The position numbers were made by a program, and so were the translations under genes. DNA of 64,000 bases. Origin: Trinickia soli. GTDB taxonomy: Bacteria; Pseudomonadota; Gammaproteobacteria; Burkholderiales; Burkholderiaceae. This document shows, one piece after another, positions 14,963-26,392 of the stretch (position 1 is the first letter of the stretch; the number at the start of each line of letters is the position of its first letter). The stretch is from positions 434,001 to 498,000 of the forward strand of contig NZ_PNYB01000001.1 of assembly GCF_002879855.1 (NCBI RefSeq). Reading direction: 5' to 3'. The notes beneath the pieces were generated by a model. It worked only from the letters and a program-made list of their open reading frames with translations, was not told where the DNA came from and did not search any database.

Positions 14963-16619
14963 TGTCAAAGCCAGATTCAAATGTCCGGGGGCTGGCTAAA
15001 TAGAAATGTCCGGTTTTAAGGTTGTGTTTCTTTCGGTTTCAAAGGCAAAGAGCGCAGAAGAAAGATACCTGAACGGGCAGGGCGCTTACGTCTCAAGTGC
15101 TCACCCTGGCAGACCGACGCCCTGGTTTTGAACGTTGGGCGGGGCTCAACTGCACGATTACGTCGTTCAGATCGGTTTGCGTGAATTCGCGCTGTTTCTT
15201 CGTACCCGGCGCCCGTTCAGCTTTGCGCACAGCGACACCGCGATTCGTGCGCGAAGGCGAACCCGAGGCGCGGCGATCATCGCGCTGCGCCTGCAGCGCC
15301 TGCGCAACCTGTAGCACATGGCTCAGGCGCTTGTGCTCAACGACCACGCCCTGATCGATCTCGGCCAACCGGTCGTACTGCCGATATGGCAGCACACGGT
15401 CGTCAGCGCGAATCTCGATGCGCCCATCGGGGTACTCCCACACCTCGATATAGCGGCCGATCAGCTTGCGGTTGGGCAGGGTGTCCTCCAGCAGATACAT
15501 CACCCGGTCGTATTGCACCGTGAGCGACTTCGTTACGCGCCGGGTCTCGCGCCACGTCATCAGCAAGTCCAAATCCTCATCGTCGCGCAGCGGCCGATGC
15601 GCATCAAAGCTGCTCTTGGGTGGCTTCGCAAAACGCGCGTTGTAAGCAGCCATAAAGGAGGGGGCCCAGGCGTTGGCTTCGGCGACCGTGCTGATATTGC
15701 GCAAGCGCAACTCCTTCACCAGCCGATCTTGCAGCGTCAGATGCGCGCGCTCCACGCGCCCCTTGGCCGAGCTGCTGTTGGCGCAGAACGTGTCGATATT
15801 GAGCTCGTACATCGCGCGCCCGAAGTGCGTCACGCTGCTACCTGTCTTGCCAGCAGCGGTGCTGCGAAACACGCTGGCCTTGTCGCTGTAGAACGCTCCA
15901 GGCTTGCCGTAGCGCTCCAGGTAGGCGCGCGTCGCCTCAAAATAGCTGAACGTCGATTCGCTCGCCGTGAAATACACGTGCATCAATCGACTCGTCGCAT
16001 CGTCCACGTAGACCAGCAGCGTACAGGCTGGCGCCCGATCCTCGAACCAGCGGTGGTCGCTGCCATCGATCTGGATCAGCTCGCCCAAACAGGCCCGGCG
16101 TGCCCGCGGCTGATAAACCTTCGGTGGTCGCTGCCGGCGCGGTACCCAGAAGCCGGCCTCCGTCATGAGCCGCCTGACCGTTTCCTTGGCCAGCCGGATA
16201 CCGTGGCACTCCCAAAGCTTCTCGCAGGCCAGCGTCGGCCCGAAATCGGCGTAGCGATCACGAATGATCGCCAGCACCCGGGCTGCGAGATCCCCGTCAA
16301 GTCGACGATTGCCGGGCTTGCTTCGATGACCAGAAACCAGCCCGGCCGGCCCGTGTTCCCGAAACCGGGCAGCCAGACGACGAATCTGTCGCGTCGTCAG
16401 CTCCAGCCGATCGGCGGCACGCCATGGCTGGAGCTTGCCGTCCACTACATCCTGAATGACCTTGAATCGGTCCAGCTCGCGCATCGTCATCGTGATCCGT
16501 TCTGTCGCAGCCATCGAAGCCCCCAGCACTGGATTTCCAGCGGCCGGTCAGCTTACGATGGATCGAAAAGCGGACATTTCTAAGTAGCCAGAAGCGGACA
16601 TTACTAAAAAGCTCTAACA
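14963..16619. mobile_element. Intact ISNCY-like insertion sequence, 1657 bp
   Basis: The ends are TGTCAAAGC at the left and GCTCTAACA (reverse TGTTAGAGC) at the right. About 55 bp of each end align as imperfect inverted repeats that include two copies of AATGTCCG and the block CTGGCTA..TAGAAATGTCCG. Both sides are flanked by CCCAT (14958-14962 and 16620-16624), a 5-bp target duplication. One transposase gene fills the interior. The element sits 1 bp from a dif-like site and the prophage. Confidence 0.8.
15093..16514 (-). CDS. ISNCY-family transposase
   Basis: A 473-residue DDE transposase. An N-terminal helix-turn-helix region (TTRQIRRLAARFREHGPAGLVSGHR) is followed by an integrase core with LGELIQIDGSDH (first Asp), GAFYSDKASVF (second Asp) and NSSSAKGRVERAH (catalytic Glu). 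A C-terminal domain follows with a basic, low-complexity tail. The start at 16514 has a GGGGG-rich stretch upstream; a GTG at 16529 is possible. No frameshift is seen, so it may be active. The single long ORF, rather than an istA/istB pair, is why I prefer ISNCY over IS21. Confidence 0.85.
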   Translation of the reverse strand: MAATERITMTMRELDRFKVIQDVVDGKLQPWRAADRLELTTRQIRRLAARFREHGPAGLVSGHRSKPGNRRLDGDLAARVLAIIRDRYADFGPTLACEKLWECHGIRLAKETVRRLMTEAGFWVPRRQRPPKVYQPRARRACLGELIQIDGSDHRWFEDRAPACTLLVYVDDATSRLMHVYFTASESTFSYFEATRAYLERYGKPGAFYSDKASVFRSTAAGKTGSSVTHFGRAMYELNIDTFCANSSSAKGRVERAHLTLQDRLVKELRLRNISTVAEANAWAPSFMAAYNARFAKPPKSSFDAHRPLRDDEDLDLLMTWRETRRVTKSLTVQYDRVMYLLEDTLPNRKLIGRYIEVWEYPDGRIEIRADDRVLPYRQYDRLAEIDQGVVVEHKRLSHVLQVAQALQAQRDDRRASGSPSRTNRGVAVRKAERAPGTKKQREFTQTDLNDVIVQLSPAQRSKPGRRSARVST

Positions 16620-16624
16620 CCCAT

Positions 16625-16653
16625 AACGTTGATAATTGAGATTATGTCAAATT
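16625..16653 (+). other. Left prophage junction, dif-like XerCD site (attL)
   Basis: It can be read as XerC arm AACGTTGATAA, centre TTGAGA, XerD arm TTATGTCAAAT. The XerD arm differs by one base from the E. coli dif arm and the XerC arm keeps its ATAA end. The last 18 bases recur at 26373-26390, at the other end of the filamentous prophage. Confidence 0.7.
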
Positions 16654-16655
16654 GC

Positions 16656-16934
16656 CTAGCCAAGCTGCGCCGCGCGATCCATGCAGCCAAGACAGCCCTT
16701 CGAACGGCATTCCTTCGACCGACAACAAGCTAAGAAGTCCAGCATTTCGCGCTTCGAGACGCCTGCCACGAGCAGGCGTTTTTTATAGGCAGCAATTCTA
16801 CGATAGACCTGCCGCCGCCGAGCATCATGAATGCCGCGCCGCGTATTACGAATACACCAATACAGGTTGCGCACCTCCGCGACCACGCTCGCCAGCTCGT
16901 CCGCCGACAAGCGCGGCCGTTCGAATAACTCCAT
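16656..16934 (-). CDS. Small basic prophage protein
   Basis: A 92-residue frame from ATG 16934 (MELFERPRLS); earlier ATGs at 16967 and 16970 would add about ten residues. The middle is basic and helical (RNLYWCIRNTRRGIHDARRRQVYRRIAAYKKRLL) and the end is cysteine-rich (ACCRSKECRSKGCLGC). I do not recognise the family. It is the last gene of the prophage on this strand and is antisense to the phage-form extension of the repressor-like gene. Confidence 0.4.
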   Translation of the reverse strand: MELFERPRLSADELASVVAEVRNLYWCIRNTRRGIHDARRRQVYRRIAAYKKRLLVAGVSKREMLDFLACCRSKECRSKGCLGCMDRAAQLG

Positions 16935-17074
16935 CTGAACCACTGTGTAGGCACCCCCGAACACCATCATTGTTAACCGAATGTGTTCAGTAAGTGCGCA
17001 CACAGAACCGCACGGTTGCACAAAAAGAATTTGAGTGACGCATAACAAAAAAGAATGCTCAGCTCGGCCGAAAA

Positions 17075-17284
17075 CTAACCGTCCGAGAGCCTTCGCTTCG
17101 GGTCTACCCCGTGCTTTTTGAGAAGCGTTCTAAGCCGCTGGTTATCGCGATACAACAGCAAAACGCCTATCACCGTAGCGGCCGGAAAGAACCACCTACC
17201 CGAGTAATGAAGAATTGCCCAAGCAGCCGCGGCGCATACGACGCCCGTGGCAAGCAACGCAATCTTGTCGACGATCCAGTTCAT
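17075..17284 (-). CDS. Small prophage membrane protein
   Basis: A 69-residue protein with two hydrophobic segments (ALLATGVVCAAAAWAIL and WFFPAATVIGVLLLY) followed by a basic C-terminus (RLRTLLKKHGVDPKRR). Its ATG overlaps the preceding gene's stop as ATGA at 17281-17284. It is probably an inner-membrane protein; its function is unknown. Confidence 0.6.
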   Translation of the reverse strand: MNWIVDKIALLATGVVCAAAAWAILHYSGRWFFPAATVIGVLLLYRDNQRLRTLLKKHGVDPKRRLSDG

Positions 17285-17748
17285 TTCGCCGCCCCAACCT
17301 GCCTAGCGCGCATTGCGTACGACATACGATTCGGTAGGTCGACTACCACCTCAGGATGACGCTGAATGAAGATTTGCATGTCCATCGGCACGATCAGGCC
17401 GCGACTCGCCACCCAACGGGCGAAAGCTCGATATCGAGCCGCGGGCGAGTTTCTATACGGGTCGCCACACGCCTTCACTGCTTCGGTCGCGACAATCAAG
17501 CTACCGAGCGTCGCGCCAACATAGTAGGACGCAGCCATCGCCCCAACTGCGCCCAGCTTTTCAAGCGTAGTCGTAGCGCCCACCAGCTCAGAAACCGTCG
17601 CGTCAGGCCCGAGCGCTCTTAACGCACCGAGCATCGTCGTAAATGTTCCAACCGCAGTTTGCAGCGACGAAAACAGACTCATCGGCGCATCAAGTCTAAG
17701 TGCCCGCATGTTGTCTTGAAACGCCTTCGAAAACGAAACGCAGTCCAT
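17281..17748 (-). CDS. Hypothetical prophage protein with a hydrophobic middle
   Basis: A 155-residue protein; ATG 17748 is preceded by GAGAGGG. Residues about 25-95 are Ala/Gly/Leu-rich (GTFTTMLGALRALG, LGAVGAMAASYYVGATLGSLIV) and could form membrane helices. The C-terminal part is basic and ends ...RARQVGAAK. It is coupled to the small membrane protein that follows. I do not recognise a family; the position after the morphogenesis genes suggests an accessory phage function. Confidence 0.6.
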   Translation of the reverse strand: MDCVSFSKAFQDNMRALRLDAPMSLFSSLQTAVGTFTTMLGALRALGPDATVSELVGATTTLEKLGAVGAMAASYYVGATLGSLIVATEAVKACGDPYRNSPAARYRAFARWVASRGLIVPMDMQIFIQRHPEVVVDLPNRMSYAMRARQVGAAK

Positions 17749-17831
17749 CAAATGGCCCTCTCAGAACATTGTTATAAGTCGCCAAACGGCAGCGAAATCT
17801 TACCAGAGCCAGGACATACCGAATTTATTTT

Positions 17832-17845
17832 CGTTACGCGTAACG
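17832..17845. promoter_or_regulatory. GTTACnnGTAAC palindrome downstream of the basic-region regulator
   Basis: Perfect dyad CGTTACGCGTAACG lying between the regulator gene and the next gene, where it could control the promoter of the three small genes. A half-match (GTTACGCGT) lies at 17860. Confidence 0.55.
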
Positions 17846-17851
17846 GAATTT

Positions 17852-18340
17852 TCATTTTTCGTTACGCGTCAAAGCTTGCAGCCTTGCGAAGTCGCCGTCA
17901 CCCTGCCAACCACACGTCAGGTCATACCACAATCCCAGGGCACCCTCGGCATAACCGCTACGCAACAGCCACTCGTTGCTACCGACTCCGCACCCCACCG
18001 CCGCGTCGACATGACGCCGGATCTCACGCTCAGCTAGCGCCGTAAGCTGCCGATAGGACCACTTCTTTCCGACCGGTTCGCGAAACGCTCGGTGCTGCTC
18101 AGCCAGCTCACGCCTGACCTGCGCCAACTCTTCGCGCAGGCGATCGTTTTCGAGCACAAGTTCGTCGTAGCCGTCGATAACAGGCAGACTCATTTTCGTT
18201 ACCGTAACGGATTCGCCCGACGCCTTCCGTCGAGCACGAAATGCCGCCTGACGTTGCGCATTGGTCATCGCGCCGACTTTACGTGGACGACCTCGACCGC
18301 GCTTTTCCGTTACGTCACTCGATAACGCTAATTTGCTCAT
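17852..18340 (-). CDS. Prophage DNA-binding regulator with AT-hook, basic region and coiled coil
   Basis: A 162-residue protein. Residues 14-21 (RGRGRPRK) are an AT-hook-like element. Residues about 27-39 (NAQRQAAFRARRK) form a basic helix resembling the basic region of bZIP proteins. A leucine-rich coiled coil follows (LVLENDRLREELAQVRREL). The C-terminal half holds SYRQLTALAEREIRRHVDAA. Perfect GTTACnnGTAAC palindromes flank the gene and related ones lie inside it, which suggests autoregulation. It sits between the secretin gene and the small distal genes. The exact family is not known to me. Confidence 0.65.
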   Translation of the reverse strand: MSKLALSSDVTEKRGRGRPRKVGAMTNAQRQAAFRARRKASGESVTVTKMSLPVIDGYDELVLENDRLREELAQVRRELAEQHRAFREPVGKKWSYRQLTALAEREIRRHVDAAVGCGVGSNEWLLRSGYAEGALGLWYDLTCGWQGDGDFARLQALTRNEK

Positions 18341-18373
18341 CGTCGCCCCCCAAAGTTCATAGACGTATTTTAT

Positions 18374-18441
18374 GTTACGAGTAACGAATAATCAAGATTT
18401 ATCGTTACCCGTAACGCAAATTCATTATCGTTACTCGTAAC
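18374..18441. promoter_or_regulatory. Cluster of three GTTACnnGTAAC operators
   Basis: Three perfect 12-bp palindromes at 18374-18385 (centre GA), 18404-18415 (centre CC) and 18430-18441 (centre TC), about 30 and 26 bp apart, in the promoter region of the regulator at 17852 and just after the secretin gene. The arms are invariant and the two central bases vary, as expected for a protein-binding dyad. Confidence 0.7.
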
Positions 18442-18485
18442 AGTAAATAGACGGCACTCGAGTAGATGGAACCACTCGAGCACCA

Positions 18486-19853
18486 CTAAATCCGACGCAC
18501 CTGCAACAGCAGCAAAATCTCCGTCTCACGCTTCGAACCCGAGTGCGCAGCCATCCACCTAGGAAGGAACGACAGCCCCGACGTCGCTCGCGTACTCTCG
18601 TCCTGGCGCAAGCCGCCCACCAGCAAGACATCGCCGTCCGACAAACCGAACGAGCTTTCGACCTTGCGGGTCTGCTTCGTCGGGCTATTGTTGACGCCCG
18701 TCGTCGTATTCACGAATGAGGAGATCTCCTCGACAAGATGCAGGTCGATCACGTCTCGCTTGACAGTAGGCTTGACCTGGAAAATCACGCCCGCATCCTG
18801 ATACTGGACACTCTGCACAGGTGCGCCGCCCGAACTCGGATACGACACCGAACCAACCACCGGCACCGACTCGCCAACGTTCAGCCTGGCCGACTGGCCC
18901 GACTCGACACGCAGATTCGGGGACGTGAGGACCTTGAAGCGAGAATCGCTGTTGAACGCCGACAGCGCAGCCCGCAAACCGCCCGCAGACAGCCTGATGG
19001 CGTTATCACCAGCGCCCACACTGCCGACGTTCAAAGAAGCCCCCACGCGCCCGCCCAGCAGGCTCAAAGCAAGCTCGAATGCCGTATTGTTCTGACCGGT
19101 ATCCGTCACCTCATACACCCACGCTCGTACGGAAACGTCACCAATCGGCGTATCGATTTGCGGCAATAGCCGCTTGAGCAGTTCGACATCGCTCGACTTG
19201 CCCACGTACACCAGCTCGTCGGCCGACTGATCCACCATCGCCGCAGCAGACGACGGAGGCACATCGTGAGACTCTTTCGCACCCTCGGACGCAGCCACCG
19301 CGCGATTCTGCGTGAACCGACCGTCCGACACGATGGGCGCGAGCAGCCGAGACAGATAATCGGCATCGCGATACATCGGCGCATAGACAAACGTCTCACG
19401 GTCCGCCGCAGCACGGTCAGCCTTTGACACGTAGGCCACACCGTCACGCAACGTCACCTGAAAGCCGAGCGAATGCAGGAAGTCATCAACCACCGCGCCC
19501 AAATCGCCATGCGAGCGGTCAAAGCGAAACGACACCGGCCGATCGTCCGCCAACACATCCGGCGACAGCACATACGGCGTGTTGAGCACGTCCCCATAGA
19601 TCAAGTCAACCACTTGCGCGACCGGAACGAAACGCAGATCGATCCGCGACCCAACCGGACGCGGTAACGGCGCAAGCGGCAACGACGACCGAGGACCGGA
19701 CGCCCCGACCGCGATCGAGGCAGGCAACGGTGGAAGCGGCGGAACGACGCCCAGCTCGTCACCGAAAGCCGCAGCAGGATCAACCCAGGCCAACAGCAAC
19801 GCACCAGCAGCCACATAGACCACACCAGTAAGCAGCGCACGCAACGAAATCAT
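18486..19853 (-). CDS. Phage secretin, pIV-like
   Basis: A 455-residue outer-membrane channel protein for phage extrusion. The signal peptide (LLTGVVYVAAGALLLAWVDPAAAF) is followed by a Pro-rich stretch, N-domains beginning IDLRFVPVAQVVDLIY, and the secretin core: VLTSPNLRVESGQSARLNVGESVPVVG, a VQYQDAGVIFQVKPTV strand and the ending SSFGLSDGDVLLVGGLRQ. The ATG at 19853 overlaps the Zot stop (ATGA at 19850-19853). It is homologous to type II secretion GspD and phage pIV. Confidence 0.93.
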   Translation of the reverse strand: MISLRALLTGVVYVAAGALLLAWVDPAAAFGDELGVVPPLPPLPASIAVGASGPRSSLPLAPLPRPVGSRIDLRFVPVAQVVDLIYGDVLNTPYVLSPDVLADDRPVSFRFDRSHGDLGAVVDDFLHSLGFQVTLRDGVAYVSKADRAAADRETFVYAPMYRDADYLSRLLAPIVSDGRFTQNRAVAASEGAKESHDVPPSSAAAMVDQSADELVYVGKSSDVELLKRLLPQIDTPIGDVSVRAWVYEVTDTGQNNTAFELALSLLGGRVGASLNVGSVGAGDNAIRLSAGGLRAALSAFNSDSRFKVLTSPNLRVESGQSARLNVGESVPVVGSVSYPSSGGAPVQSVQYQDAGVIFQVKPTVKRDVIDLHLVEEISSFVNTTTGVNNSPTKQTRKVESSFGLSDGDVLLVGGLRQDESTRATSGLSFLPRWMAAHSGSKRETEILLLLQVRRI

Positions 19854-20974
19854 TTCAACACCCCCGGCACACCCATAGCAGCCGCACCCCGCCCAGGCAA
19901 CGACCCCGACCACACCGCCACGCGCTTACCGTCAACCTCGCCCGCCCGCTCAATCCCAGAACCGACAAACCCGGCCGGCGACTGGACACGAAGCCGCCCC
20001 GACTCGTCCGCCACCACCACCCAATACTGACCATTGGCAGCAAACGAGCCGACCACGCGCCACTGTTCAGACATGCCGGGAGAACGAGGAACGGCAGCCG
20101 CAGCACCAGACGCCGGCGCCGCACCCGAAGCCGCCCCAGCGCCCGACGCGTGGCCACCCGAATCCGACGACGCATGCGCGCCGTGCTTAAGCATGCCGCC
20201 GTGGAAAAAGCGCACAACGAAGAAGATCGCCGACCCGCCGACGACGAGCACAACCACCGCCAACACCCAAAACAGAGGACGCGCGAATAAATTTTGCCGC
20301 TTGTCGACAACCGCCTCTTTACCCGAACCGCCACCCGACGCAGCGTAAGACTTGTACAGCGGAAAAATCTCTGACTTGTACTTGCGCACGAACGTACCGA
20401 CGCGGTTCGCTTTCGTCAGCCGCGCCGTCTCGTACATCTCGACGCGATAGCCCTTCGAAACACCGATCGACTTGAGCTTTACCATCCGAAACGAAAGCTC
20501 GATTACATCGCGAATAGAACGGTTAAGCCCACTTACAGCTTGAATCATCAACACAACGTCGCAGGCCACGCCAGTGTGCTCATGCACGAAGTGTCTATGC
20601 ATGCGAAAAAACGCCATGTGCTCCCCAGGCAGCGCACCACGATCCGGCCATATCTTCCAAGCCTCATCGACGACCAACAGGTCGCCCGGCTGAACGAAAC
20701 CGGGTTCGACCTTCGCGCCATCACTGTGCTCGAGTTCAACCGGAAAAAACCGAGGCTGCTTAATGTCGTCAGTGCGCACGTACACGACCTTTCCCAACCC
20801 ATCGACACCCAACCCGCGCTTCTTAACCAAGTGCGCGTGAATACGTTCCTCACTGATGCCGTCGATATTCGTCACGACCCGACGACCAGCCGCCACAGCA
20901 TCGAGCAACGGCCCCGACACGACCTCATACGACTTGCCCGACCCCATCACGCCAAAATACGCAGTCACGGCCAT
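19850..20974 (-). CDS. zot: Zonula occludens toxin family assembly ATPase, pI-like
   Basis: A 374-residue protein of the Zot/pI family, which drives filamentous phage assembly at the inner membrane. Walker A is GVMGSGKSYE near the N-terminus and Walker B is DLLVVDEAWKIWP. A membrane helix lies at about residues 235-257 (FWVLAVVVLVVGGSAIFFVV), and a periplasmic Ala/Gly/Ser-rich tail of about 110 residues follows. The start at 20974 follows GGGTGA; a TTG at 20986 is unlikely. It overlaps the secretin start downstream and the DUF2523 stop upstream. Confidence 0.93.
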   Translation of the reverse strand: MAVTAYFGVMGSGKSYEVVSGPLLDAVAAGRRVVTNIDGISEERIHAHLVKKRGLGVDGLGKVVYVRTDDIKQPRFFPVELEHSDGAKVEPGFVQPGDLLVVDEAWKIWPDRGALPGEHMAFFRMHRHFVHEHTGVACDVVLMIQAVSGLNRSIRDVIELSFRMVKLKSIGVSKGYRVEMYETARLTKANRVGTFVRKYKSEIFPLYKSYAASGGGSGKEAVVDKRQNLFARPLFWVLAVVVLVVGGSAIFFVVRFFHGGMLKHGAHASSDSGGHASGAGAASGAAPASGAAAAVPRSPGMSEQWRVVGSFAANGQYWVVVADESGRLRVQSPAGFVGSGIERAGEVDGKRVAVWSGSLPGRGAAAMGVPGVLK

Positions 20975-20978
20975 CGCG

Positions 20979-21272
20979 TCACCCAATCAACGGAATGCGA
21001 CGGATGATGAACCGACACACCCACGCAGAGACAATCAGCGGCGCACCGTAGCTGAACGCGAACAGGTCAAGCCAATACCAAATATCCGCACCAATGCCGC
21101 CAAACGCCGCCGACAATTGCGCAGCCCCCGGCAACACGCCCGCCGACTGCAACACACCGATGAATTCGACCGTCACGAAGTACAACGCGAAATACAGCAC
21201 GAACTTAACGATGATGGACCGGAGAACGAACCCGAGAACGACATTCAGCGCGCTGAGCAAAATACCGAACAT
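20979..21272 (-). CDS. DUF2523 minor coat protein, pVI-like
   Basis: A 97-residue very hydrophobic protein with about three membrane segments (LLSALNVVLGFVLRSIIV, VLYFALYFVTVEFIGVL, APLIVSAWVCRFII). It matches DUF2523, found between the adhesin and zot in many Ralstonia/Xanthomonas-type inoviruses, where it takes the place of pVI. It would cap one end of the virion and anchor pIII. Confidence 0.8.
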   Translation of the reverse strand: MFGILLSALNVVLGFVLRSIIVKFVLYFALYFVTVEFIGVLQSAGVLPGAAQLSAAFGGIGADIWYWLDLFAFSYGAPLIVSAWVCRFIIRRIPLIG

Positions 21273-21283
21273 GACAACACCCC

Positions 21284-21409
21284 CTAGTCAATCGAAGACG
21301 CCATAACCACACAGACCACGGCGATCAGCAGCGCAAGCAACGCCGCACCACCAAGCAACTCGAAAAACCACCGCCACTCATCAACGATGTCGACAAACGA
21401 AACGAACAC
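21284..21409 (-). CDS. Tiny prophage membrane protein, 41 aa
   Basis: GTG start at 21409 with AAGGGG 8 nt upstream, immediately after the adhesin stop, ending TAG at 21284-21286. The sequence opens VFVSFVDIVDEWRWFFELLG and continues with a single hydrophobic helix (ALLALLIAVVCVVM). The position between the pIII-like and pVI-like genes and the good ribosome binding site argue for a real virion or assembly component. Confidence 0.6.
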   Translation of the reverse strand: MFVSFVDIVDEWRWFFELLGGAALLALLIAVVCVVMASSID

Positions 21410-21421
21410 GACACGAACCCC

Positions 21422-22795
21422 TTACGCAGCAAGCACGATAAACAACGCGACGAGCGAATACACAAGCAACATCGCGCCGTGAAGCTCCGGCCGCACCTTC
21501 TCAGCCAGATCACAATGCGCAGTCGTACTTAGGCTCTTGTCGAAAAACGGGATAACGAGCGGCGAGCAGACCGCACCATGCGCCGGAACCGAAAACGATC
21601 GAAGATCCGGCATTAGGTTAAGAAGCGGCGCAAGGATTTGCGCAGCCGTGGGCGTGGACTCAAGCGACGGCAGCCCAACGCCAGGGTCCGGGCCAAGATT
21701 GACCTCAGCCCCACTCCCAGGATTCGTCGCAGCAGGCACTGCCGAGGCACCTGTACCAGTGCTCGCACCAGTCGTCCCGAACGGCGCAGACGAGCTAGTC
21801 CCGCTCAACGTGCCCGCGCCAGACGTGAAACTCCCCACAGTCGGCGCAGAGCCGCCCAACTCAGTCTCTATAGTCCCCGCTTGCGACGGCAAAATCGGCG
21901 CATTCACCGGATACGGCAACCCGTTGTAACCGGACCCTTGCGCAGCGTCGAGCCACAACGCATTCACGGTGTCGGCCAGCATCACAGGATTCAGCGTATC
22001 CGCCGCATCACTACTAGACGTACCAGCGGCCGCAGAAGTCGGTGAACCTGTCACCGGAGGCGGAGGAGGCGGAGGCACATACGACATACAAGCCGTATCG
22101 TCCAGCATGCCAGACGAACACGCAGTCCCAGACCAAGGCGCAGCAGCCAAGCCAGGCCCGACGCTCGACGAAGTAACCATACTCCCGCTCGTCTTATCGA
22201 GCAGATTGAACGAACACGAAGAGCTCGTCGAACCCTGCAAAGTACATTTATCAAAAACCCAGGTATAACCGGCTCCGGACGCATTCTGATGCTGAGCGTA
22301 AGCCTGAGCCGCCGCATCAGCAGTACTACCACACACACTGTAGACACACCACGCCGCACCGCCATCAGTAAGCGCCGGAAAAGGATCGGCCGAACTTGAA
22401 GACTTTTGCGTCGTAACAGTGCCATCCGAATTGATTTTCCACGCCGTCAACGTGTCATTGCCTAACGTCGTCGGCACACCCGCCAACAACGCACCAAGCC
22501 CCGCACTGGTAGCCACCGCAACCCACGGCACCGCACTGACAGCCGACCCAGCAGCAGCAGCAAGACTCGACGCAAAACCGGCCGCCGTCGCGCCAATCGC
22601 GGCCACAGTCGCAGCGATGCGAGGATCATTCGCAACGAACCCTTCCGCCGCCGCCGCCGCACCCACCAACGCCGAGATAGCGGGCATCATCCCTGGCGCT
22701 CCCGACGTTTGCGCATACGCCACTTCGTGCGGGGCCGTATACACGACGCCGTACAACAACACAGCCGCCGACAAGATCACCGATCGCAGCTTCAT
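21422..22795 (-). CDS. pIII-like adsorption/minor coat protein
   Basis: A 457-residue exported protein. The signal peptide (VILSAAVLLYGVVYTAPHEVAYA) is followed by Ala/Gly-rich segments, paired cysteines (WCVYSVCG, DKCTLQG, SSCSF, GTACSSG, DTACM), a run of seven prolines at about residue 250, a Gly/Ser/Thr-rich linker, and a C-terminal membrane anchor (GAMLLVYSLVALFIVLA). This modular layout matches pIII, which binds the host pilus and the Tol complex. The receptor specificity cannot be read from sequence. Confidence 0.8.
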   Translation of the reverse strand: MKLRSVILSAAVLLYGVVYTAPHEVAYAQTSGAPGMMPAISALVGAAAAAEGFVANDPRIAATVAAIGATAAGFASSLAAAAGSAVSAVPWVAVATSAGLGALLAGVPTTLGNDTLTAWKINSDGTVTTQKSSSSADPFPALTDGGAAWCVYSVCGSTADAAAQAYAQHQNASGAGYTWVFDKCTLQGSTSSSCSFNLLDKTSGSMVTSSSVGPGLAAAPWSGTACSSGMLDDTACMSYVPPPPPPPVTGSPTSAAAGTSSSDAADTLNPVMLADTVNALWLDAAQGSGYNGLPYPVNAPILPSQAGTIETELGGSAPTVGSFTSGAGTLSGTSSSAPFGTTGASTGTGASAVPAATNPGSGAEVNLGPDPGVGLPSLESTPTAAQILAPLLNLMPDLRSFSVPAHGAVCSPLVIPFFDKSLSTTAHCDLAEKVRPELHGAMLLVYSLVALFIVLAA

Positions 22796-22798
22796 CTC

Positions 22799-22885
22799 CT
22801 AGCCCCCAAAGCCAGAAATCACCGCCCAGGCACACAGCATCCCCCACGCGAAACACGCGAGATACCACGCACTATTCACGTCCAT
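22799..22885 (-). CDS. Tiny prophage membrane protein, 28 aa
   Basis: ATG 22885 to TAG 22799-22801, directly before the adhesin start. It is one hydrophobic helix of about 20 residues (WYLACFAWGMLCAWAVISGF), the size and place of the pVII/pIX-type end-cap proteins. The ribosome binding site is weak; a GTG at 22891 is an alternative start. Confidence 0.5.
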   Translation of the reverse strand: MDVNSAWYLACFAWGMLCAWAVISGFGG

Positions 22886-22950
22886 AATCACGACCCAACA
22901 AAAAGGGGCGAGCCACAAGCCCGCCCCAGTTCAAAAAGCCGCAGAGGCGC

Positions 22951-23199
22951 TTATGCAGCTTTGATACGCGCGATCACGATCTTCGCCGCCGACACCACCA
23001 CGTACACCGCCGCGATCGAGCCAGCAATCGCCAAAACAGCGGTCGTCACCGTCGAAAAATCCACAGCGGTCGTGAGCGGCGTTAGATCCACCCCCGTCGC
23101 ATTCGCGAACGACGAAGCGACCGCAGCCGAACCACCCACGGCCGTAACGACCGCCAACCGCTTTGCACCCTTGAAACGAGCCTTGATCAGACCGAACAT
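22951..23199 (-). CDS. Major coat protein, pVIII-like
   Basis: An 82-residue precursor. The start at 23199 is fixed by AGGAG 7 nt upstream. It has a basic leader (MFGLIKARFKGAKR), a hydrophobic stretch and a likely signal-peptidase site SSFANA before TGVDLTPL. The mature roughly 46-residue part has an acidic N-terminus, a membrane helix (VLAIAGSIAAVYVVVSAAKIVI) and a basic end (ARIKAA), the hallmark layout of filamentous phage major coat. Confidence 0.88.
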   Translation of the reverse strand: MFGLIKARFKGAKRLAVVTAVGGSAAVASSFANATGVDLTPLTTAVDFSTVTTAVLAIAGSIAAVYVVVSAAKIVIARIKAA

Positions 23200-23263
23200 A
23201 CACAGCACTCCTAACGTTAAACACCACCATCAAACCGGGAAGCGCCCGGCCACGCACAGCAAC

Positions 23264-23545
23264 CTAAGCGCGGCGGATCATGTCGAGCACCACGCCGCAA
23301 CACCTAGAGACCACGTACAGCGACATCACCCCCAAAAACGCAACGCTCCAGAAGCCCGCCGCTTGCGTATAGTCAAACGCATCGGCCGACGTGCTATCGA
23401 CCAACGCCAAATGCAAAACCCCCAACGCGCCAGGCGTGCCATCCGTCGCCGTGCAGATCACCCCACGCCCCGACGCGCTAATCGCTCCAACTCCCGACGC
23501 CGGAGCGTCCGACATGCACACCGCTACATCGATGCCCGTACTCAC
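23264..23545 (-). CDS. Small prophage protein with one membrane helix
   Basis: A 93-residue protein. The GTG at 23545 is chosen because AGGGGG lies 8 nt upstream; a GTG at 23554 would add three residues. The N-terminal part is Ala/Ser/Gly-rich and contains two cysteines; a hydrophobic helix follows (FWSVAFLGVMSLYVVS), ending in a short basic tail (DMIRRA). It sits between the ssDNA-binding gene pair and the major coat gene, as minor coat proteins do. Confidence 0.65.
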   Translation of the reverse strand: MSTGIDVAVCMSDAPASGVGAISASGRGVICTATDGTPGALGVLHLALVDSTSADAFDYTQAAGFWSVAFLGVMSLYVVSRCCGVVLDMIRRA

Positions 23546-23557
23546 CCCGGCCACCCC

Positions 23558-23764
23558 CTAATGCAACGACCGGTCAACAAACACCAGCCGCACCACGTCA
23601 AACGCCCCGTCGCAATGGTCAAGACCCGCTTGGCAGGCCTCCTCCGCGTCCCCGAACCCGCCAGCTTCACGGAGCCGGGGCGTAAAGCCTACGTCGCCAT
23701 CGCGCGGGCAAAGGAACTCGCCACTAGCCAACTCCTGCACCACGTAGACATGTGCCCCGTCCAT
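23558..23764 (-). CDS. Small hypothetical prophage protein
   Basis: A 68-residue soluble protein (MDGAHVYVVQELASGEFLCP...CQAGLDHCDGAFDVVRLVF). It is acidic, has three cysteines and no membrane segment. It starts 3 nt after the ssDNA-binding protein gene and its stop lies next to the following start, so it is part of the tight operon. No family is recognised. Confidence 0.6.
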   Translation of the reverse strand: MDGAHVYVVQELASGEFLCPRDGDVGFTPRLREAGGFGDAEEACQAGLDHCDGAFDVVRLVFVDRSLH

Positions 23765-23766
23765 GA

Positions 23767-24078
23767 TTAGCTCTTGGACGAAGCGGCCGACCGAGCAGTC
23801 GGCTTGAGCGACAGCATCACAGTCTTGGACGTCTTGCCGTTGCTTACGATTTCGAGCTCGGCCACCGCGTCGAACGGAAACGGCAGGTGCTTGTACTTCT
23901 CGAATTCATCAGCCTTGCCCAGCGTGAACTCAGCAGAAGCGAAGCCTTTAGCCGTACCTTTCGAGTCATCGAGCGGCGTCTCCGTGTACACCTTCGTGCT
24001 ATCGAAAGCCGTGCCGTTTTCCATCGTGCCCTTGCTCGCCTTCATTCCCAAGACCTTCACTTCGCTCTGAAACTTCAT
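23767..24078 (-). CDS. Phage single-stranded DNA-binding protein, pV-like
   Basis: A 103-residue protein placed directly after Rep, the normal position of pV, which coats the single-stranded genome before packaging. It is predicted to be beta-rich, with basic/aromatic stretches (MKFQSEVKVLGMKASKG) and a disordered Ser/Lys C-terminus (RSAASSKS). Its first 80 nt overlap the 3' end of rep in another frame, so both proteins are encoded by the same DNA there. Confidence 0.7.
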   Translation of the reverse strand: MKFQSEVKVLGMKASKGTMENGTAFDSTKVYTETPLDDSKGTAKGFASAEFTLGKADEFEKYKHLPFPFDAVAELEIVSNGKTSKTVMLSLKPTARSAASSKS

Positions 24079-25348
24079 AGTTCACTCCGGTGCAAATATC
24101 GGCCGGCCGAAAGACCTGTTCCTCTGGCCAGCCATCATCAGAGGGGTCTAAATCATTGAACGCCTGCGGCACGTCGCGCTTGTGGATAGGCGTCTCGCAG
24201 AACTCGTAACCGGGGACCTTCAACCGCATGGGCCACTCACCCGACTTGCTTGTGATCGCATCGAGGAATGCCTCGTCGCCCATCAGCGGCCGTAATACAG
24301 CGGCGTACTTGCCGTACGAAATGAGGATGTTTCGCAAGCTCGCGTCGACGTTGATTTCCGCCGCTTTTTGCTTGACCTCGATCCGTTGCGGCGTGCGCGC
24401 GTGCTCGAAGAAGCGCAGGCACGGATAGGCACCCACGAAATAGCCCGATGGATCGAGCAGCACATCCAGAGGGATCACACGCTTGTCGTTACGGACCTCG
24501 ACCTCGAACCGCACCCACGGCGAAGTTTCGTCGCCCTGTTCCATGCCTTTCTCGTAGACACGACACATCTTTCCGTTCTTGCGACGGCCAACGTACAGAC
24601 TGCGCCCCTTGCCCCTAGGATTGCGCCAGTCTCCCCGGTGTTCGTGGCTCGGCGCACGACCCGACGCCGTAAAAAGCCCATCGTCGTACCACTGGTCCGC
24701 CTGATCCACCGTGTACTCGCCTTGCATGCAGTCATGCGCCAGGTCTACACGCGTGATCGTCGGACGTGCGGCCGTTTGCGCGAGGAAGTCATACAGCCGC
24801 CCCTCCCACCCATCCTTCGCCGCGATGCACCCTTGACCCGTCAAATTGACAAGGATCGTGCCGCGCTGGCTCGAGCCGCCAATCGCAACGTAGCCATACG
24901 CGTTGCCAAGCTCCCACGCACTGAGGTAGAAGTCGCGCCGCACCTGCAAATCCTTCGTGATCCCGAAGCCAAAAATGTCCGTCATGATGTGGCTGGCTTC
25001 GCAAATGAACTCGTCATCGCTCACCAACTCACGGCCCGCAGTCTTGCAAAACGTCCGCTCGCTCACCGTAAAGCGCAGCGTGTCGATCATGGCCACCTGA
25101 TCGCCGCACGGCACGCGCACTGCGATCGTCTTAATCTCGCCCGATTCGGTAACGACCAGTTGCAGCCGTTCCACCGTCGCGAGCGGCGCTTTCTCCGTAT
25201 CCCCCCTGTTAGTACGGGGGGGGGCATCGCGCAGCGCGCCGCCGCGTCCGTCCTCGTGCCTGCGGGCGGGCGCGGCGGCATCCTGCGCGAGAAGCCCCTT
25301 AGGAGTACTAACAGATTCAGCAAGAAACGCGTTCTTGAGTTTGCCCAT
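23999..25348 (-). CDS. Phage replication initiation protein (Rep_trans / RstA-like)
   Basis: A 449-residue rolling-circle initiator. The N-terminal 70 residues are basic and disordered. The core has TRVDLAHDCMQGEYTVDQA, a GRSLYVGRRKNGKMCRVYEKG segment and WVRFEVEVRND, the pattern of the Rep_trans/replication initiation factor family (RstA of CTXphi, Rep of Ralstonia inoviruses). The YVG..KNGKM.R.YEKG stretch holds the likely catalytic tyrosines. It nicks the double-stranded origin; candidate origin hairpins lie directly upstream. Its last 80 nt overlap the ssDNA-binding gene. Confidence 0.88.
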   Translation of the reverse strand: MGKLKNAFLAESVSTPKGLLAQDAAAPARRHEDGRGGALRDAPPRTNRGDTEKAPLATVERLQLVVTESGEIKTIAVRVPCGDQVAMIDTLRFTVSERTFCKTAGRELVSDDEFICEASHIMTDIFGFGITKDLQVRRDFYLSAWELGNAYGYVAIGGSSQRGTILVNLTGQGCIAAKDGWEGRLYDFLAQTAARPTITRVDLAHDCMQGEYTVDQADQWYDDGLFTASGRAPSHEHRGDWRNPRGKGRSLYVGRRKNGKMCRVYEKGMEQGDETSPWVRFEVEVRNDKRVIPLDVLLDPSGYFVGAYPCLRFFEHARTPQRIEVKQKAAEINVDASLRNILISYGKYAAVLRPLMGDEAFLDAITSKSGEWPMRLKVPGYEFCETPIHKRDVPQAFNDLDPSDDGWPEEQVFRPADICTGVNYEVSERSEGLGNEGEQGHDGKRHGFR

Positions 25349-25900
25349 GGCTTATGAGTTGACTTGAACAGGAACGAGCGTCAGCCGATTCGGCTGGCGC
25401 CCCTGGCGATATAGTTGCGTGCGCGCCTTGTCGCGCGCCTTCTGGCCGTCGCGTGCTCGCACTTCGACGGTCGCCACTCGCGCGCCGTGAAGCGTGTACG
25501 CATGCACTTGATATGCAGACACAGCTACCCCGTTCAGTTCTTCGTTCTGTTACCGGCGGCCCGCCGGTTGGCTTTTTTGCGCAAAAGACGGACGGCCAGA
25601 TAGGCCCGTCCCAAAATCACCGTGCTCCGAGGCATTAGCCGCACGGCAAAGCTACCTTCTCAAACCGTGGGGCGCCGCCCCACGCCCCGCCCTCGCCGCC
25701 GGGTGGCTCGCGGGGGTTGGCATACACCGCCACCCCCCTTAGCCCGAGCGTAGAGCCGCTCCAGTCGCGTCAAGGCCAAAGCCCCCTCCGGGGGTCGCTG
25801 CGCGAGCCTTGACACGCCCTCCACGGCCACCGCCAAGGCCCACCCTAGCAGCCGGTTTACCTTTCCGACGAACCTGCTAGACTGCGGTACTACGACAGCC
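25349..25900. other. Prophage intergenic region with stacked hairpins, probable replication origin(s)
   Basis: About 550 bp between rep and the divergent regulator with no gene I can support. It contains an 11-bp-arm hairpin at about 25380-25403 (GCGTCAGCCGA / TCGGCTGGCGC), the dyad GTGGGGC-GCC-GCCCCAC at 25667-25683, and a cruciform-like block at about 25778-25815 in which CAAGGC/GCCTTG arms enclose a GCCCCC/GGGGGT stem. Inoviruses keep their plus- and minus-strand origins in such regions; the exact nick site cannot be assigned. Confidence 0.55.
25552..25578 (+). terminator. Rho-independent terminator-like hairpin in the prophage intergenic region
   Basis: ACCGGCGG / CCGCCGGT arms followed by TTGGCTTTTTT on the plus strand. 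It would stop transcription entering from the prophage-distal side; on a circular phage genome the central terminator is often found here. Confidence 0.6.
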
Positions 25901-25909
25901 TGCTCAAAT

Positions 25910-25960
25910 TTTCGACAAATGTCGAAACACTGGTGCGCATTATTTCGACGAACGTCGAAA
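25910..25960. promoter_or_regulatory. Two TTTCGAC-N4-GTCGAAA operators upstream of the repressor-like gene
   Basis: Perfect 7-bp-arm dyads at 25910-25927 and 25943-25960, 33 bp (three helical turns) apart, between rep and the divergent HTH gene whose ATG is at 25979. The position is that of the RstR operator in CTX-type phages, so binding by the HTH protein, giving autoregulation and repression of rep, is the natural guess. Confidence 0.65.
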
Positions 25961-25978
25961 AAAGTCAAGAGGATTGAT

Positions 25979-26392
25979 ATGACAATCGGTGAACTTTTGG
26001 ACGCCGCGAAACGGAAACTAGGATCGCTCGGCGCTGTCGCGCGGCAGTTCGGCTTCGAACAGTCCCGACTATCAGCTTGGCGCAGTGGAACCCGCAAGCC
26101 AGACGCGGGCGAAATCATGATGCTCGCGGAAATGGCGGGACTGCCGCCATTCGAGACCCTGGCGAAGATCGAGCAAGAACTCGACGAAAAACACCAGTCG
26201 GTATGGGCGCGTGCCCTGGGAAACCTACGCGCGGCCGGGGTAGCCGCGACCGTGATCCTTGGACTCGTGATCTATTCGATGACGCCTAAAACCGCATCGG
26301 CGGCTGTCACAAATTTCGTGACACCCTCCCCCGCCAGCGCCGCGCCGCATCAAGAAAGTAGGGCGGGGAGTGTTGAGATTATGTCAAATTAA
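25979..26392 (+). CDS. Prophage HTH repressor-like membrane protein (DUF3693-like), truncated by integration
   Basis: A 137-residue protein; ATG 25979 has AAGAGG upstream. An N-terminal helix-turn-helix (GAVARQFGFEQSRLSAWRSGTRKPDAGEI) is followed by EMAGLPPFETLAKIEQEL and a hydrophobic segment (AAGVAATVILGLVIYSM), a layout I associate with DUF3693 proteins of filamentous phages. Its last codons are the att core and its TAA stop (26390-26392) lies at the host border. In the circular phage the frame would continue 26 codons through 16653-16733. It is divergent from rep with two palindromic operators in between. Confidence 0.7.
   Translation: MTIGELLDAAKRKLGSLGAVARQFGFEQSRLSAWRSGTRKPDAGEIMMLAEMAGLPPFETLAKIEQELDEKHQSVWARALGNLRAAGVAATVILGLVIYSMTPKTASAAVTNFVTPSPASAAPHQESRAGSVEIMSN
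26373..26390 (+). other. Right prophage junction (attR)
   Basis: TTGAGATTATGTCAAATT, identical to 16636-16653. The bases to its left (GGGGAGTG) do not resemble a XerC arm, so this is the phage-derived side, while the full dif-like site is on the left. Host DNA resumes with AAAAGCGACC. The following 26393-26593 holds no gene I can support. Confidence 0.7.

Follow-up and report, generated by a model that had tools for sequence, protein, structure and literature searches.

Attachment within a repressor gene: a Trinickia filamentous prophage and a C-terminal tail predicted to be lost on integration

The attachment site of a filamentous prophage in Trinickia soli lies inside the 3' part of the phage repressor gene. 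Read from the two junctions, integration exchanges the C-terminal tail of this regulator, together with the terminator of the gene, for host DNA, which here provides an immediate stop. The window, i.e., the whole 64,000-nucleotide stretch of contig NZ_PNYB01000001.1 that was analyzed, is a further case of an arrangement already described, and the pattern is more general than the earlier note on this DNA had stated. The new part of the finding comes from the comparison of relatives, which indicates, within the limits given below, that the tail lost on integration has been conserved in the circular form across different integration targets. In the explanation favored here, attP lies in the repressor gene, the tail restrains the protein in the circle, and the tail-less prophage form is the immunity repressor. 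As a whole, this explanation is given a probability of roughly 0.55, for which the tail and the terminators are the main grounds.

The prophage is 9.7 kb long and has a copy of the 18-bp dif-type core TTGAGATTATGTCAAATT at either end (Table 1). These are the only two copies in the window, where 0.01 chance matches are expected at up to three mismatches. Allowing two mismatches at most, the last 16 bases of the core occur nowhere else in the 6.1-Mb assembly. The hallmarks of the Inoviridae/Tubulavirales are present, namely a Zot/pI ATPase, a rolling-circle Rep, and a secretin. All three genes are on the minus strand, and a single helix-turn-helix (HTH) regulator is on the plus strand. No phage records near the window were found by megablast. 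A scan of 15 phage proteins turned up no integrase family, and the target is dif; the recombinase is therefore probably host XerC/XerD, acting at a chromosomal dif of this Trinickia strain.

Table 1. Features of the prophage and its surroundings, in positions of the window
Feature	Position	Strand	Basis
Transposase-like ORF of the insertion sequence beside host dif	15093..16529	-	
attL core, with central hexamer TTGAGA and XerD-type half site	16636..16653	+	repeat and dif-pattern search
Prophage, including both att cores; core-to-core period 9737 bp	16636..26390	.	
26 codons and TAA, predicted C-terminal tail of the circular-form repressor, lost from the prophage form	16653..16733	+	
phrog_27692 gene, with its 3' end antisense to almost all of the tail; stop TAG at 16658-16656	16656..17048	-	
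Intrinsic terminator (ACGCCTGC-CACGA-GCAGGCGT and T run), 25 nt past the circular-form stop	16759..16785	+	
Secretin (pIV)	18486..19913	-	
Zot/pI assembly ATPase	19850..20986	-	
Replication initiation protein (Rep_trans), divergent from the repressor	23999..25348	-	
Palindrome TTTCGACAAATGTCGAAA, candidate operator upstream of the repressor (-69)	25910..25927	.	
Palindrome TTTCGACGAACGTCGAAA, candidate operator upstream of the repressor (-36)	25943..25960	.	
HTH repressor gene, prophage form, 137 aa (phrog_638)	25979..26392	+	
Hydrophobic segment AAGVAATVILGLVIYSM, residues 85-101, then a signal-peptidase-like AxA stretch (TASAA)	26231..26281	+	hydropathy window
attR core, overlapping the last repressor codons; TAA completed by host DNA	26373..26390	+	

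The left core, together with positions 16632-16635, is part of a chromosomal dif (pattern match at 16632-16652). The dif-type pattern was searched with at most one mismatch in 13 genomes, nine of them Trinickia and including that of the window. Eight of the nine Trinickia genomes have two dif-like sites, and one (G003) has three. Most of these sites belong to two classes by central hexamer, TTGAGA-like and TTCATG-like. The core of the window's phage matches the TTGAGA-like class, and the core of a T. dinghuensis phage matches the TTCATG-like class. From its position, the insertion sequence left of dif is presumably IS1202-like. The IS1202 family is described as targeting dif sites (PMC10132070). 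The flank between dif and the end of the insertion sequence (16530-16635) recurs beside dif in other Trinickia genomes, with 91% identity over 1.5 kb in L157. At L170 (G004:C73:551-571), short phage-tail-like DNA (ctgcgccgtgcgattcgagcagc) is found beside an otherwise empty-looking dif and is perhaps the scar of a lost prophage.

The earlier note had placed the 18-bp repeat over the last codons of the HTH gene, with the TAA stop at the host border, and these coordinates hold. The prophage-form regulator ends in VEIMSN-stop, where the stop is made of the last core base and two host bases. At the left junction, the same frame continues as CLAKLRRAIHAAKTALRTAFLRPTTS-stop, which is 26 codons (16653-16730) followed by TAA at 16731-16733; re-reading found this continuation to be correct. 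The two lengths given earlier, 163 residues in the circle and 137 in the prophage, were also recovered, where the 163 residues are a prediction for a circle deduced from the junctions and itself unsequenced. The claim that integration alters the repressor protein is borne out by the frame and the att pair. The antisense overlap of the 26 codons with the 3' end of another phage gene was missed in the earlier note. This second ORF, phrog_27692, has a Cys-rich end, is antisense to both the repressor tail and the terminator, and has equivalents in L007 and L036. Its conserved KKRLLVAGV stretch is encoded on the strand complementary to the terminator hairpin.

No Pfam HTH family scored above cut-off for the window's protein. 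A profile of relatives matches Cro (3bd1) and an immunity repressor (8bny) at E about 3e-4. Judged by this profile, by the phrog_638 assignment, and by the all-helical N-terminal domain modeled for L089, the regulator has an HTH fold related to Cro/CI-type regulators (XRE/Cro-CI).

Relatives of the regulator were matched in 26 of 398 family genomes and 35 of 399 order genomes, and a sister-group profile gave matches in 70 of the 398 family genomes; the window's own genome is part of all these counts, as are many weak matches to other HTH proteins. Further matches were made up of 15 named-genome loci and 21 virus contigs, and T. dinghuensis DHOM06 scaffold13 holds the same regulator gene. Pairs of att sites were sought in 43 stretches (the window, L007, L036-L055, L125-L143, L057, and L066), of which 28 were resolved. 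The 15 without an att pair (L037, L039, L040, L041, L043, L046, L047, L052, L127, L128, L131, L134, L138, L140, and L143) were dropped because of a contig edge, a broken gene, the absence of a second core from the stretch, or an unclear pair. In one of them, L043, a tRNA-Ser-type repeat is present with unusual spacing. The counts leave out five further named-genome loci (L058, L063, L068, L069, and L070) and the virus contigs, of which only part was read. The repeat lists were inspected by eye to choose the pairs. In eight dif pairs, 12-14 bases match (L049, L051, L053, L055, L125, L126, L139, and L142); these were accepted on a dif half site in both copies, in some cases even where a longer repeat was listed. 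The search for the right core reached 200 bp past the stop (150 bp in one round), a range that would miss a far-off attP.

The core lies inside the regulator ORF in 25 of the 28 prophages with both att ends, the window included. In the other three (L129, L130, and L132), the core ends 43-56 bp past the stop, and these perhaps represent a second repressor design at the same place. The arrangement is also found at targets other than dif, namely tRNA-Val(CAC) and tRNA-Arg(CCG). Both tRNA-targeting phages tested, L042 and L038, encode tyrosine integrases, and a third, L045, has an HxLRHT motif. Among the 25, each of the three codon phases is used by dif cores and each by tRNA-Val cores, always in phase with the tail. 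A core that is readable in any frame but remains open and in phase with a similar tail is expected from selection on reading through.

Read from the left junctions, the tails of the 25 prophages are 18-44 residues long. Those of the closest phages have 26 residues each (CLAKLRRAIHAAKTALRTAFLRPTTS, ILSTLRRAIRAAKTAFRTAPLRPATS, and WMKRLRRWLNAAYATCIPTLPRPATR); RRLWRRVKRWIEQFSPAPAQSH and DTKRNLWRRFKDWFRQILNGHPEPALS are examples from tRNA-Val phages. The host-given ends of the prophage forms are arbitrary-looking, unrelated, and 0-47 residues long, with L055 as an exception. Net charge is at least +3 in 23 of the 25 tails. Positive charge as sole evidence for a tail was rejected, as the same CGN-rich DNA, translated in one of its reverse frames, is about equally basic (K+R of 0.23 in both). 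The reading frames were compared by similarity and amphipathicity, on 22 representatives, since the 25 tails are not independent; the 22 are themselves still related. The in-frame tails are the most alike, with a mean pairwise score of 18.98 and a z of 11.5 over shuffles, against 2.7-6.8 for other frames of the same DNA and 2.0 for the host side. Scores above those of shuffles (z up to 6.8) are seen in the other frames as well, because the tail DNA is related. The amphipathic moment of the tail is 0.66 in frame, compared with 0.35-0.49 in the other frames and 0.34 on the host side, and it exceeds that of its own shuffles (0.475, p = 5e-5). The tails of L141 and L054 are unconvincing.

Each stop was checked for a strong intrinsic terminator over a stretch reaching from 30 nt upstream to 80 nt downstream. 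Such a terminator is present at the circular-form stop in 12 of 25 phages, each time 6-46 nt past the stop, and at the prophage stop in none of the 25. The background rate is 0.4% of random windows inside prophages. Among circular and metagenome forms, Cf2 and SMA7 have the terminator, and Cf1c and L089 do not. Where a terminator follows the circular-form stop, that stop is likely the native end of the gene.

The earlier note had called for a check on circular relatives, and in these the regulator does run through an att or dif-like core into a tail. Taken together, the conditions that the note had named as refuting its claim turned out mostly in favor of the claim. The GenBank records are Cf2 (...YSLYIMS-KRVRRLLRSFVAAL...), SMA7 (...GMYIM-FKAIRRWLARILPR...), φSHP2 (...FKLLRGWLARLLPR...), Cf1c, φXv2, φLf, and SMA6. 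An attachment or XerC/D site is annotated within the CDS in Cf2, φXv2, and φLf. The dif-like core in SMA7, φSHP2, and SMA6 was assigned in this analysis, and the records of SMA7 and SMA6 are titled proviral. The metagenome contig L089 reads through likewise, with TIRRMYRWLMASRLNPATA. The tail of Cf1c and φXv2 is hydrophobic and then basic.

Whether the extension is conserved as protein, as the earlier note had asked, received a divided answer. In-frame similarity across relatives and the pair SMA7-SMA6 speak for it; the window's own subgroup and other close pairs do not. Each codon test covers 18-27 codons. For SMA7-SMA6, the tail (pN 0.26, pS 0.47) is better conserved than the body (0.47, 0.58). 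In SMA7-φSHP2 (tail 0.21, 0.46; body 0.16, 0.45) and Cf1c-φXv2 (0.04, 0.11; 0.009, 0.17), the tail has a pN below its pS but is the less conserved part of the protein, as it also is in two pairs near saturation, Cf1c-φLf (0.57, 0.69; 0.31, 0.48) and φXv2-φLf (0.69, 0.80; 0.27, 0.53). Tail values of pN and pS are 0.12 and 0.20 for L125-L126, and 0.59 and 0.81 for L048-L049. In the window's own subgroup they are 0.19 and 0.29 for window-L007, 0.43 and 0.40 for window-L036, and 0.45 and 0.19 for L007-L036. There, pN is not reliably below pS, and the antisense gene blurs the test. The codon tests give mixed support overall and none in the window's own subgroup.

The tail sits downstream of a hydrophobic segment (Table 1). 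In 24 of the 25 regulators, the 17-residue window of highest hydrophobicity is located after the HTH, often with an AxA stretch following it. Hydropathy-window scores in that region are 1.42-2.27, and 20 of the 25 score at least 1.6 there. A hydrophobic segment also precedes the core in Cf1c and Cf2. Two of the regulators that stop before att are without the segment (L129, 1.28; L130, 0.87), and L132 has one (1.69, above five of the 25). The link of the segment with an attP inside the gene is suggestive only. An AlphaFold model of L089 has a mean pLDDT of 78.5, with a confident all-helical N-terminal domain. It is followed by a long helix (72-97), a disordered linker, and a lower-confidence helix (115-138) that spans the core and tail. 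On the hydropathy window, the segment may anchor the regulator in the membrane.

Among the closest published systems is φRSS0, in which attP lies within ORF13 and integration cuts the protein from 156 to 130 residues; a functional difference was proposed (Yamada 2013, PMC3816273), and the position of attP was repeated by Askora and Yamada in 2015 (PMC4471427). Like the window's phage, φRSS0 is described as having an HTH regulator gene in reverse orientation, a dif-type attP at its 3' end, XerCD recombination, and a loss of 26 residues. It differs in host and in sequence, and the comparison is by published description. Tail conservation, a membrane segment, and a terminator go unmentioned in the passages used here from PMC3816273 and PMC4471427. 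ORF12 of XacF1 may be split by integration (Ahmad 2014, PMC4076744). The window has the marks of this φRSS0/XacF1 type, an attP of dif type within the 3' portion of an HTH regulator ORF and a shortened C-terminus. It is not the first case in a XerCD-dependent filamentous phage, as had been supposed, because both φRSS0 (PMC3816273) and XacF1 (PMC4076744) were already in print. Xanthomonas phages resemble the window in having attP inside an HTH regulator CDS, as annotated for Cf2, φXv2, and φLf or described for XacF1 (PMC4076744). They differ in having another repressor lineage, and the CDS of the next gene overlaps the tail end in Cf1c, Cf2, φXv2, and φLf.

Other systems are more distant. In V. 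anguillarum, phage ORF9 is reported to be extended on integration (PMC7412436), and Pf phages are treated in PMC7549136. The phages φRSM and φRs551 are likewise inoviruses with a repressor next to attP. They differ in using a serine recombinase of the resolvase type and a tRNA-Ser target, and integration is said to leave the φRSM repressor unaltered (PMC3816273, PMC5608472). The φRs551 repressor has 96 residues, and its printed coordinates end before attP (PMC5608472). Mycobacteriophages of clusters G, N, and P have attP inside the repressor gene, and integration removes its 3' end; in phage BPs, the stop codon of the prophage form is completed by host DNA (PMC9262239). The window is like them in the place of attP and in a prophage form without the viral C-terminus. 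The mycobacteriophages are another kind of phage, with a tyrosine integrase cotranscribed with the repressor, ssrA-like tags on the viral repressor and integrase, and a prophage form reported to give immunity (PMC9262239). Neither an ssrA-like tag nor a tagged integrase in the repressor operon was found in the window's phage (15 phage proteins scanned). The likeness drawn in the earlier note therefore stands for an attP inside the repressor gene and fails for the end of the tail. A search of titles and the first part of abstracts, with subscription papers largely outside it, found no report that describes an amphipathic tail as conserved or places attP in the repressor of an inovirus that targets a tRNA gene, which is weak evidence of absence.

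The favored explanation runs as follows. In this inovirus at a Trinickia dif, attP makes up the 3' portion of the repressor gene. While the phage is circular, whether replicating or in the virion, the gene would run via attP into the 26 codons, a cationic amphipathic stretch with its own terminator, placed downstream of a membrane-type hydrophobic segment. The tailed repressor would be restrained, i.e., unstable, held at the membrane, or badly placed for DNA binding, and an incoming circle could replicate. The tail-less prophage form would be a durable immunity repressor. If the durable repressor exists only in the prophage form, immunity would be tied to successful integration. Integration may thus be the event that sets immunity.

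The loss of the tail may instead be simply tolerated. Here, the 3' end of a terminal gene would offer a compact attachment site, the tail would be useful in the circle, and the truncated form would work well enough, with no switch. The window's attP would lie between two convergent genes, the prophage forms end in arbitrary host sequence of 0-47 residues, and φRSM is reported to have a repressor unchanged by integration and yet a lysogen without virus DNA or particles (PMC3816273). Against this, the arrangement recurs at dif, tRNA-Val, and tRNA-Arg and in all three reading frames of the core, and a merely tolerated loss is considered rather unlikely. Yamada's Hypothesis 1 for φRSS0 holds that the full-length form mainly regulates host genes, and that the short form silences the prophage and gives immunity. 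It was proposed for ORF13, which undergoes an equal loss at dif (156 to 130, or 26 residues; PMC3816273). The palindromes upstream of the window's repressor are candidate operators that suggest phage targets instead, and this hypothesis is judged improbable for the window.

A proteolysis switch exactly as in the mycobacteriophages would make the tail a degradation tag. In a sister group, the circular-form tails of L048, L049, L050, and L051 end in YAA, MAA, LAA, and RVA, like ssrA-type ends and resembling the -LAA tags of mycobacteriophages (PMC9262239). L125 and L126 of the same group end in VSI, and the ssrA-like tag was rejected as the general rule, the -AA ends being confined to part of that group. 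The window's tail ends in TTS and those of close relatives in ATS and ATR; an ssrA-like end is absent, and no recognized degradation signal was found in the window's tail. The regulators that stop before the core (L129, L130, and L132) end in ALA, SAA, and SAL, so such ends are not tied to integration. A switch of precisely this kind is quite improbable. Chance read-through, with 26 non-coding codons open by accident, has in its favor the GC-rich DNA, an antisense gene that could hold the frame open, and the lack of clear purifying selection by codon tests in the window's subgroup. It is countered by in-frame similarity and amphipathicity above those of other frames, by terminators past the tail stop in 12 of 25, by circular phages that carry tails, and by a tail in L042, where no antisense ORF of at least 50 codons overlaps. 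For the group as a whole, accident is largely refuted by the frame controls, the terminators, and the circular phages, and for the window it is very improbable.

A broader version of the favored explanation is put forward tentatively, as somewhat doubtful. Integration-gated rewriting of membrane-anchored repressors would be a general inovirus design regardless of the recombinase, whether XerCD at dif or a tyrosine integrase at a tRNA gene. A C-terminal helix, cationic and amphipathic and confined to the circle, would control the placement and activity of the repressor, and immunity would be set by integration. If this general design is true, tandem prophages would make both forms, and the left copy would probably regain a tail from its neighbor. 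In L055, the host side of the right core resembles the tail of a second phage, and in L084, the neighbor's tail looks out of frame with the gene. Such junctions suggest tandem or remnant prophages.

Filamentous phages can multiply without killing, and little is understood of how they choose between the circular and the prophage state. The comparison turns a 2013 proposal for one phage into a broader, testable pattern, in which the regulator itself would differ physically between circle and prophage. The differing part is conserved among relatives and is found again at other integration targets. The arrangement also explains the arbitrary C-termini of these regulators in prophage annotation.
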